DNA of 64,000 nucleotides, from contig NZ_WLVL01000039.1 of NCBI RefSeq assembly GCF_009707125.1, positions 62,001-126,000 of the forward strand. The letters run 5' to 3'. The position numbers were made by a program, and so were the translations under genes. The number at the start of each line of letters is the position of its first letter. Positions within the stretch are counted from its first letter, which is position 1. The notes below the pieces were generated by a model. That model searched no databases. It saw nothing but the letters and a program-made list of their open reading frames with translations, and had not been told where the DNA came from. The stretch comes from Arsenicicoccus cauae (GTDB lineage: Bacteria; Actinomycetota; Actinomycetes; Actinomycetales; Dermatophilaceae). This document shows, piece after piece, positions 47,099-50,450 of this stretch.

Positions 47099-47182
47099 GC
47101 CGGTCGCCTCTCCCTCCCGGCCGTATGCCGGTACCCGGGCCGCAGCTCTCGCAGCGCGTGACGCTCCGCTACGCTCTGAGAG

Positions 47183-47968
47183 GTGCGGCTGCCCAAACTC
47201 ACCCGCGAGGCGGTTCTGATGTCCATCGAGGAGTGTCAGGCCTCATCTGAGGCCACGTTCCTAGATGTTTGCGGATTCGGTATGTACAACATCCAGCATC
47301 GCATTGAGCACCAAGGAGCTACCTACCCAGCGAAGGCCGTCATGGGCCGCGCCTTTTGGCACGTAGACGAAACGGTGGCATGCGCCGCCGATCTTCACGG
47401 CGAGGGCGGCCAGCACGCAATGAAACGACTTGCAGAGGTGGGTTTCTACCCGCCACCCGCTGCAAGCCCGGCGGCGAGCGCGAGCACGGGCACGGCACTG
47501 GGTCCCGTCGTCACGGTTGTGCCGTGCGAGAAGAACACTGCGACAGCGTTCGCGACTGGCCCACAGCCAGCCGGAACAGGTTGCCGCAGCGAGGCCGACC
47601 TCATGCGACGCCTCGAGGAGCAACTTCGCGGGCTGGGGCACCACCCCGGCAGGCTTCGCATCCAGCCAGCCAGCGGCGAGGGCTCCTTCGTCACTGACAC
47701 TTATGACGCCACGTCCAACGTCCTCTACGAGGTGAAGGAGGGGGCGAACCGCGAATCCGTGCGCATGGCCATCGGCCAATTGCTCGATTACTCGAGGTAT
47801 CGGACGCCACTCCCCCATCTCGCCATCGTGCTGCCCGAGTGGCCGGGGCAAGATCTGGCGGACTTGGTGCAGTCGACCGGCATGGCCTTGATCGTCGGCT
47901 CAGAAGCGGGGTTCGTCGGATTGCCCGAGGTCCAGAAGCTGCCGGCGCCACGAACGTCACGACCGTGA
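47183..47968 (+). CDS. Candidate restriction protein: McrA-like head domain with PD-(D/E)XK nuclease
   Basis: A 261-residue protein, less GC-rich than its neighbours. Residues 4-90 resemble the N-terminal head domain of ScoMcrA-like modification-dependent enzymes: LTREAVLMSIEECQASSEAT, then FGMYNIQHRIEHQGATYPAK and MKRLAEVGFY. After a Ser/Ala linker, residues 135-250 look like a PD-(D/E)XK nuclease: FVTDTYDATSNVLYEVKEGA near 170, with Asp then Glu-x-Lys, and ESVRMAIGQLLDYSRYRTPL. It lacks the HNH of ScoMcrA. GTG at 47183 is seven bases after TACGCT (47170-47175). It precedes the Mrr-like gene by 37 bases. Activity is inferred from fold-level likeness only. Confidence 0.6.
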   Translation: MRLPKLTREAVLMSIEECQASSEATFLDVCGFGMYNIQHRIEHQGATYPAKAVMGRAFWHVDETVACAADLHGEGGQHAMKRLAEVGFYPPPAASPAASASTGTALGPVVTVVPCEKNTATAFATGPQPAGTGCRSEADLMRRLEEQLRGLGHHPGRLRIQPASGEGSFVTDTYDATSNVLYEVKEGANRESVRMAIGQLLDYSRYRTPLPHLAIVLPEWPGQDLADLVQSTGMALIVGSEAGFVGLPEVQKLPAPRTSRP

Positions 47969-48005
47969 CAGTCTGTAGTCGTCGATCCCAGAGGAGATGA
48001 GAGCC

Positions 48006-49067
48006 ATGACGGCCATGTGGGGTATTCACAACGACGCGCTCGGCGCCGAGCTGGTGGAGAAGGGCTTCATCTCGATCGGCTGGGACGAGGTCGGCGACAT
48101 CCGGGCCATAGGCAACGACCGGTCATCGCTGAAGGCAGCCGTGACGCGGACGTACCCCGGGAGCAAGCCCGGCGCGTTCCCGGTATGGGCCGGGGTGCTG
48201 CACAGGTTCGCCTATGAGATCGAGGAGGGCGACCTCGTCGTGGCTCCCTACAAGGCGGACGGCACAATCAACTTCGGCAGGGTGGTCGGAGGCTACGAGT
48301 ACCACGCCGAGGAGCGCGTGCATCGCCATCGGCGGCGCGTCGAATGGCTCCGGACCGGCGTCGCCCGCGGCTTGTTCCCCCAATCAGCGCTCTACGAGAT
48401 CGGCTCGGCCGTGACGCTGTTCCGGATCCGCCGACACGAGCACATCTTCCAGGAGTTCCTCGCCACGCCTGACGAGGAGGCCTTCGAGGCAGCGGCGACT
48501 GCGGTCGAGGATGCAGCCACAGGGGCGGTCGATGCCGAGCCCGACGACGGGTTGGCTCCCACCCCTGCCGAGGAGGAGCCCAACGCCGACCGGATCCAGC
48601 AGCACACCCAGGACTTCATCGTGCGGACGCTGCACCGCAGCCTCACTCACGAGCAGTTCGAGCTCTTCACCGCTGATCTGCTCCGCGTGATGGGATACCA
48701 GGCCCGCACCACCAGCTATTCGCAGGATGGCGGGGTCGACGTGATCGCCCACAAGGACCGTCTCGGGCTCGAAGCGCCCCTCATCAAGGTGCAATGCAAG
48801 CACACGACCGTCAGCCAGGGGGCACCGCAGGTCCAGCAGCTCGTCGGCACGCTCTCGCGCGGAGAGGTCGGGCTCTTCGTGGCGTTGGGGACCTACACCC
48901 GGGACGCGCAGGCTGTGGAACGCATGCGACAGGATTTGCGGCTCCTGAGCGGCTCAGACATCGCCAATCTCGTCCTGAACCACTACGAGGCGCTCCCGAT
49001 CCGATGGCGGGACGTCATCAAGCTCCGCCGGGTGTACGTCGTGGACCTCCCGCCCGAGGAGCAATGA
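48006..49067 (+). CDS. EVE-like/Mrr-type restriction endonuclease
   Basis: A 353-residue two-domain protein. Residues 3-125 are an EVE/PUA-like base-reading domain (MWGIHNDALGAELVEKGFIS, GWDEVGDIRAIGNDR, DLVVAPYKADGTINFGRVVG). A Glu/Ala-rich linker covers 160-195. Residues 205-345 are an Mrr-type nuclease: HEQFELFTADLLRVMGYQAR near 220, TSYSQDGGVDVIAHKD near 240 and LIKVQCKHTTVSQGAPQVQQ near 262, giving the Asp and Gln-x-Lys catalytic set. Mrr-like enzymes cut modified DNA. ATG at 48006 has AGAGGAG nine bases upstream; the in-frame ATG at 47997 is too close to it. Probably one transcript with the preceding gene. Confidence 0.8.
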   Translation: MTAMWGIHNDALGAELVEKGFISIGWDEVGDIRAIGNDRSSLKAAVTRTYPGSKPGAFPVWAGVLHRFAYEIEEGDLVVAPYKADGTINFGRVVGGYEYHAEERVHRHRRRVEWLRTGVARGLFPQSALYEIGSAVTLFRIRRHEHIFQEFLATPDEEAFEAAATAVEDAATGAVDAEPDDGLAPTPAEEEPNADRIQQHTQDFIVRTLHRSLTHEQFELFTADLLRVMGYQARTTSYSQDGGVDVIAHKDRLGLEAPLIKVQCKHTTVSQGAPQVQQLVGTLSRGEVGLFVALGTYTRDAQAVERMRQDLRLLSGSDIANLVLNHYEALPIRWRDVIKLRRVYVVDLPPEEQ

Positions 49068-49107
49068 AAAACCCGGCCTCAGAGAGACCGGGTGGGTTAT
49101 GACTACA

Positions 49108-49147
49108 GATTAGCAGGGGTTGGGCATGGGCCCAACCCCTGCTAATC
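49108..49147. terminator. Strong bidirectional terminator
   Basis: GATTAGCAGGGGTTGGGC pairs perfectly over 18 bp with GCCCAACCCCTGCTAATC around a 4-base loop, between the Mrr-like gene and the NYN remnant, which converge. A smaller stem (ACCCGG / CCGGGT) lies just after the Mrr stop at about 49071-49093. Confidence 0.92.
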
Positions 49148-49152
49148 GGCCT

Positions 49153-49880
49153 TCACCAGTTGGGCGGCTTCGAGATCCGCTCGACCACGGGTGGGAGCTG
49201 GTGCTTCAGGAAGTCTTCCGGACCGAGCCTCCGCCACCAGTGCCTCCCTGCACCCTGGCCGCGTTGTCCTCGGAGGTCCCCGGCGTGCCTGTTGCCGTGC
49301 GGGTTGACCAGGCCGACGGGCACGCGCTCACGGGCGATGTGCACGGGCAGCTTCAGGTCCGAGTCGTTGGATATGACGACCGCCGCGTCAACAGCCCCGG
49401 TGAGGACGTCGGTGAGGAGGTGCGTGGCTACGTTGACGTCGGAGCCCTTCTCCTCCTGGTGCAGGATCGAGACCATGAACACAGCGTCGGCTCGAGAGGT
49501 GCCCATGGGCGCCTGAACCATCACCGGCCACGCCGGCGAAACCAGCTCGATGCCGCCAGGGTCCTTCTTGACCGCCAGAGGACGGTAGCGGACGCCTGTC
49601 TGATACTTGCCGAACTCGACAGGTCGACGCTCCCAGACTGCTGCAGCGCCTGGAAGTAGAGGAACTGCTTGGCGTATCCGGACGGATTGAGCCCTTGGTC
49701 AATCGGAGCGGAGCAGTACGCGACGCGCTCGATCTGAGCCTCCGGCCAACCCCGCTGCTCTTCAACCAAGGTCGCGCTGAGCCCTCGTACATCCAGCCAC
49801 CTCCAGCCTTCGGCATCACCGCACTGCTTGCGGCCGCCGTAGTAGAGGTTGAACCCGTCGACGTAGACCCCGACCTTCAT
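49153..49880 (-). pseudogene. NYN-domain (PIN-like) nuclease, frameshifted
   Basis: Starts MKVGVYVDGFNLYYGGRKQC, the NYN opening with the first catalytic Asp, and runs in frame to about 49620. There the reading shifts by one base, then continues as [54 protein letters not shown], and [20 protein letters not shown] (second acidic cluster) to a stop at 49153. A single missing base in the run CTGTCGAG would restore a protein of about 240 residues. Family members are metal-dependent RNases. The ATG overlaps the stop of the HsdR remnant (ATGA). A sequencing error is possible. Confidence 0.8.
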
Positions 49881-50450
49881 GACGTCCTGCCGGTGCTGTA
49901 CCTGGGAGCCATCACCTCCATCTGCTCGATCACCAGCCGGATGGCCTCAGGCTGCTTGTCCGGCGGGTAGTCGTACTTCACCAGCAGGCGCTTGACGGTG
50001 GACCGCAGCTTGGCCCGGACGTCTTCGCGCACGGTCCAGTCGGTGGAGGTGTCGCGGCGCATGATCGTGACGAGCTCGCGTGCGATCTGCGCGAGGACGT
50101 CGTCGCCGAGCAGGTCGCGGGCGGACTCGTTGGCGCCGACGGCGTCCCAGTAGGCCAGCTCGTCGCGGTCGAGGGGTGGCGTGAACCTCTCCTCGCGTTC
50201 GGCTTCCTCGCGGATCTCGTCGGCCACGCGGAGCAGCTCTTCGAGGACTTCGGCGGAGGTGAGCTGGCCGTTCACATAGCGGTTGGTCAGCTCGGCGAGG
50301 CGCTCGGAGAACTGGCGTTCGCGCACGATGTTGCCGCCGGTGAGGGTGCGCACGTCTTCGGTGAGGGCGGCGCGGAGCGCTTCGATGTACTGGTCGGCCT
50401 CTTCCTGGCCCTCATCGATGGGCTCGCGCCCCTGCTGTGGACCGTAGGTG
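49877..50450 (-). pseudogene. Tail of a type I restriction enzyme R subunit
   Basis: About 185 codons match the C-terminal helical domain of HsdR (DUF3387 region): QFSERLAELTNRYVNGQLTS, AEVLEELLRVADEIREEAER, LDRDELAYWDAVGANESARD, IARELVTIMRRDTSTDWTVR and VKRLLVKYDYPPDKQPEAIR. The PD-(D/E)XK nuclease and helicase motor, roughly 850 residues, are absent; homology starts abruptly near 50450, and no hsdM or hsdS is in the window. A stranded 3' end of a lost type I system. The frame remains open to 50569 but that part is not HsdR-like. Confidence 0.8.

Follow-up and report, generated by a model that had tools for sequence, protein, structure and literature searches.

What is the role of two adjacent genes of Arsenicicoccus cauae that each join a putative recognition domain to a nuclease domain? 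An earlier note on the 64,000-nucleotide stretch of DNA analysed here (the window) had described them as intact, 37 bases apart on one strand, and possibly working together as a two-nuclease unit. We propose, with a probability of roughly 60%, that they form a small, co-transcribed, modification-dependent (type IV-like) cassette whose proteins would act independently on different marks.

Domain architecture of the two genes

Coordinates and reading frames bear out the description of the pair. Gene 1 is uninterrupted on the plus strand from a GTG start at 47183 to a stop at 47968 and encodes 261 amino acids; after a gap of 37 bases, on the same strand, follows the ATG of gene 2 at 48006. The earlier note read gene 1 as a ScoMcrA-like head followed by a Glu-x-Lys nuclease, and the profile and structure comparisons that it proposed recovered both domains. 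The head comprises residues 1–91 (47183–47455, plus strand). A profile built from five head domains matches ScoMcrA (PDB 5ZMM, residues 5–61) with an E-value of 8e-9, and residues 4–95 of the gene 1 model overlay residues 4–95 of 5ZMM with Z 10.7 (72 residues, 2.2 Å). The predicted structure has a mean pLDDT of 88, with the nuclease domain mostly above 90, and the stretch of about 40 residues between head and nuclease is modelled mostly with low confidence. Absent from gene 1 are the sulfur-binding domain, which takes up about 170 residues after the head in ScoMcrA-type enzymes, and the HNH nuclease.

By motif and fold, the C-terminal domain of gene 1 (47576–47923, plus strand) belongs to the PD-(D/E)XK type. 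It has an alpha-beta-beta-beta-alpha-beta core with an acidic-x-Lys catalytic set, and in an alignment of 57 relatives of this nuclease the residues E137, D172, E183, K185, Q199 and Y203 are invariant or nearly so. Its fold compares with those of the Can2, Card1, EndoMS and XisH nucleases at Z about 9–10. Foldseek returned weak matches (best E 0.007), so the PD-(D/E)XK claim draws on the motif and on the second structure aligner. No model in Pfam, PADLOC or NCBIfam matches gene 1. As judged from sequence and model, the gene is a head domain fused to a complete PD-(D/E)XK nuclease, and it is under purifying selection (dN/dS about 0.30 against the A. bolidensis copy). About 6–7 bases 5' of the GTG lies a TANNNT box (window positions 47172–47183) that is conserved in A. 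bolidensis and suggests a leaderless transcript.

Gene 2 (48006–49067, plus strand) is intact up to its stop at 49067; ATG 48006 is the best start, with an in-frame alternative at ATG 47997. The reading as an EVE-like domain joined to Mrr held up. The nuclease domain (48636–48971, plus strand), with its DGGVD and QCK motifs, matches Pfam Mrr_cat (PF04471) with an E-value of 1e-23 and a score of 84 bits, where the cut-off is 21; by sequence, gene 2 also matches MspJI (E 1e-4), and its C-terminal fold overlays MspJI and AspBHI. Residues 1–160 overlay EVE, YTH and VcaM4I domains with Z about 10 over 114–122 residues (10.0 for VcaM4I). The Pfam EVE model gave no match to gene 2 up to E 1, and the EVE/YTH assignment comes from the fold alone. 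Almost the whole PADLOC profile PDLC04819 is covered (positions 1–330 of 334, E 6e-104), and by this match gene 2 is already catalogued as the defence candidate PDC-S02. Selection is purifying here too (dN/dS about 0.12 against the A. bolidensis copy). Full-length relatives at 50–62% identity are spread across the family of the window; the gene 2 family as a whole is widespread, plasmids included, and some members sit inside type I loci, in the order hsdR-hsdS-gene 2-hsdM in one case (L062, gene names by eye).

In L198, L199, L200 and genome G069, distant relatives of gene 2 come directly 3' of the gene for a helicase-methyltransferase protein (about 1,590–1,600 amino acids); a tyrosine recombinase and an unbroken NYN gene adjoin them there. 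This neighbourhood looks like a mobile restriction island.

Relatives of the head and of the nuclease

Does the head read modified bases? The claim that each gene joins such a reader to a nuclease stood for both nucleases but not for the gene 1 head. In ScoMcrA the head is small, flexibly attached and without assigned function, and the sulfur mark is read by the separate sulfur-binding domain (PMC6224610), the very domain that gene 1 lacks. Among 297 genomes sampled from the class, 23 have the head; the sample holds one genome per species, and a simple GC-frame method served to call neighbouring genes, some of which were named by eye. Its partners are HNH nucleases, an McrB-like ATPase, a NOV_C-like domain (by eye) and, in short proteins, a zinc-ribbon-like tail. 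Within the family of the window, two genomes have it as the N terminus of an McrB-like protein beside an McrC-like gene. A search of viral contigs for relatives of the head found none. From these partner domains, we infer that the head might be a modification reader. It is conceivable, though we hold the idea only tentatively, that the head itself reads a DNA modification and that gene 1, as head plus nuclease, is the minimal natural form of such a protein; gene 1 would then define a new class of modification-dependent enzyme with an unnamed PD-(D/E)XK family, and the EVE-Mrr protein beside it in Arsenicicoccus would read a second mark. Among these arrangements, six short head proteins carry a C-terminal CxxC zinc-ribbon-like tail and no nuclease (L215, L218, L219, L222, L224, L225), and one gene (L209, 1435–2682) joins the head to a C-terminal NOV_C-like domain (by eye), another nuclease-like partner.

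The nuclease of gene 1 belongs to a larger family. A pattern scan of the genome collection with gene 1 alone gave no relative and a profile was needed; built from six sequences, it returned 148 candidate stretches, of which 80 were kept. Members are present in 25 of the 297 genomes of the class (about 8%) and in 14 viral contigs, and a plasmid search for gene 1 relatives at E 1e-5 returned none. With a strict profile, a ScoMcrA-type SRA domain precedes the nuclease in 83 of 108 strong domains, an earlier SRA label on all 90 members of one cluster having proved too broad. A profile match places this SRA domain on residues 269–348 of 5ZMM (E 7e-7). Other members carry an upstream EVE domain (PF01878; L014, Phycicoccus) or DpnI_C domain (PF17726, E 4e-21; L174, Leifsonia). 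Pfam gave no credible match to 57 members and NCBIfam none to the family; PADLOC calls five of ten SRA-nuclease proteins type IV enzymes, probably via their SRA part. The family is thus unnamed in all three libraries, and a literature search found no biochemical test of any member.

Beyond Arsenicicoccus, the head precedes this nuclease in two proteins, as head-SRA-nuclease in Rhizocola hellebori (L175) and as head-X-nuclease in a Chloroflexota MAG (L157). A nuclease-domain tree, computed from few columns, groups the Arsenicicoccus proteins in a single supported clade that lies among SRA proteins and excludes L175 and L157. This placement suggests repeated fusion of the head to the nuclease. 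The earlier note saw in gene 1 a PD-(D/E)XK domain in place of the HNH of ScoMcrA, and such a swap can be observed directly: over 202 residues, L157 (head-X-PD-(D/E)XK) is 39% identical to L205 (head-X-HNH), with E 5e-36. As they have the head-X part in common, nucleases are exchanged on one recognition part. In Amnibacterium flavum (L126, 5347–7338), a gene for an Mrr-domain protein that seems to have membrane helices comes 103 bp after an SRA-PD-(D/E)XK gene; here, independently, a member of the nuclease family neighbours an Mrr gene.

The same A. cauae genome holds a second intact head-nuclease gene (G000:C11:40748–41479; L003 6761–7486) of 241 residues, 56% identical to gene 1. Stops reported in it lie at or after its natural end and were rejected as breaks. 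It is divergent from a gene for a C5 DNA methyltransferase (E 2e-67), beyond which stands an HNH_2 protein (L003 7570–9081 and 9010–9876). An ISL3-like transposase and a resolvase, both named by eye, adjoin it as well. From this copy it follows that gene 1 needs no gene 2 as a neighbour.

The pair and its surroundings

In A. bolidensis (DSM 15745, NZ_AUFG01000007.1) both genes occupy the corresponding site, flanked by ABC transporter and MFS genes; an internal stop suspected in that copy is its natural stop codon. Between the two species, the pair has a synonymous divergence of 0.77 and 0.69, flanking genes one of 0.29 and 0.30, a difference of about 2.5 times, and this joint elevation suggests that genes 1 and 2 travel as one cassette with its own history. 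The pair is present in two of five genomes of the genus, the three other Arsenicicoccus members being without it. Co-occurrence, which the earlier note wished to see examined, was thus found in A. bolidensis but not elsewhere: among ten close full-length relatives of gene 2 from the family, no head or nuclease gene lies within about 7 kb on either side (less at contig ends), and a gene-1-like neighbour is likewise absent around seven relatives from the order (1.5 kb) and around two on viral contigs (up to 5 kb). The pairing is real and is known from one genus only, in two Arsenicicoccus species; given this confinement, it may reflect a chance neighbourhood in a defence island.

The composition of the pair is also distinct, as the earlier note had claimed. 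Its GC content of 65.8% (window mean 72.0%) ranks among the lowest 0.5% of segments of equal size. Total GC is also low in the adjoining ABC permease and MFS genes (66.8 and 67.3%); the contrast with these flanks is clear at third codon positions, where the proposed codon and GC profile gave 0.75 and 0.87 for the pair and 0.97 and 0.96 for those two neighbours.

Two strong hairpins (49071–49147, z −6.3) separate gene 2 from the NYN remnant and are predicted to close the two-gene unit in a terminator-like manner. The second (49108–49147), a perfect inverted repeat, has no other occurrence in the genome, and its interpretation as a mobile-element end was rejected. Beyond the hairpins, the broken NYN RNase and the type I HsdR tail noticed previously were both recognized. 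The NYN remnant (49153–49880, minus strand) has full-length homology and a single frameshift near 49620, which could be a sequencing error instead of decay. The HsdR C-terminal tail (49877–50401, minus strand; 165 residues, T1RH-like_C E 2e-57) resembles full-length HsdR proteins of the family at 60–75% identity and ends in a stop codon that overlaps the start of NYN; in one relative (L230) NYN likewise starts directly after HsdR. Both remnants do adjoin the pair, but nothing of either is found at the A. bolidensis site, and they are what is left of a neighbouring type I operon that has decayed, not parts of the cassette. NYN was also considered as a partner of gene 2 and rejected, being coupled to HsdR, on the opposite strand, behind the hairpins and missing in A. 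bolidensis. Distant relatives of gene 2 are near NYN genes in four genomes.

Proposed function and relation to known systems

How might the two proteins act? Gene 1 would dock on DNA via its ScoMcrA-type head and gene 2 via its EVE/YTH-like domain, and each would cut with its own C-terminal nuclease, PD-(D/E)XK in gene 1 and Mrr-type PD-QxK in gene 2. The target would be incoming phage or plasmid DNA with modifications foreign to the cell. The proteins most likely work independently, and their recognition of different marks would broaden coverage. A type IV-like function is favoured because the nuclease family of gene 1 is repeatedly fused to SRA, EVE and DpnI_C domains, which are readers of modified DNA or their kin, because the head recurs on restriction-type proteins (McrB-like beside McrC, HNH nucleases and ScoMcrA itself), and because gene 2, itself PDC-S02, has a nuclease fold resembling that of the modification-dependent enzymes MspJI and AspBHI and an N-terminal fold resembling VcaM4I and YTH. 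That the genes form one cassette, presumably transcribed as an operon, is argued by their shared site in A. bolidensis, their common synonymous divergence and the hairpins that close the unit.

The methyltransferase and HNH genes beside the second copy would also suit a conventional restriction enzyme. Gene 1 might accordingly be a sequence-specific enzyme blocked by modification, with the head as sequence reader, or else a solitary remnant. This we consider improbable, since the window copy has no methyltransferase alongside, a type II enzyme lacking protection would kill its host, a motif scan of 73 nuclease loci revealed no C5 methyltransferase neighbour and few others, and most relatives bear SRA, EVE or DpnI_C domains. 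Equally improbable is a role of gene 1, or of both genes, as solo housekeeping nucleases or as abortive-infection nucleases with a trigger other than modification: signal-activated Can2 and Card1 are among the closest folds to the gene 1 nuclease, but the spread is patchy, with the pair in two of five genomes of the genus, the domain partners are of restriction type, and a signalling domain or partner gene is absent nearby. The cooperating unit of the earlier note, in which the proteins form a complex with each other, or a double-strand cut requires both to be bound to marked DNA, appears the least probable, for although two species have the genes side by side on one strand, with a common rise in synonymous divergence, and the Amnibacterium flavum neighbourhood offers a parallel, the pair was found nowhere else, relatives of gene 2 (ten from the family, seven from the order, two viral) do without a gene-1-like neighbour, the gene 1 type also stands alone as the second copy, and the proteins have changed at unequal rates (68% identity to the A. 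bolidensis copy for gene 1, 85% for gene 2).

What are the implications of the proposed type IV-like cassette? In the 261 residues of gene 1 the head is the sole recognition part beside the nuclease, so its role can be tested apart from the other ScoMcrA domains. A model of the nuclease family would reveal many unannotated candidate type IV enzymes, which are possible tools for mapping DNA modifications.

Among known systems, ScoMcrA (PDB 5ZMM), a type IV enzyme of Streptomyces coelicolor, has the same N-terminal head and a similarly modular combination of recognition and nuclease parts; gene 1, in contrast, is without sulfur-binding, SRA and HNH domains and has PD-(D/E)XK instead. The DpnI-like winged-helix enzymes (PMC11037411) are linked to gene 1 through the DpnI_C domain on its Leifsonia nuclease relative, whereas gene 1 itself combines the head with a nuclease family that the libraries do not name. 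Gene 2 matches PDC-S02 (PDLC04819), a catalogued candidate, over its whole length; what differs here is its position after gene 1. With MspJI and AspBHI, which join an SRA-like reader to an Mrr-like nuclease, it has in common the nuclease fold and the reader-Mrr plan, but its N-terminal domain is EVE/YTH-like and not SRA. VcaM4I, a modification-dependent EVE-HNH enzyme (PMC7897488), has an EVE-type N terminus like that of gene 2, combined with HNH where gene 2 has Mrr.
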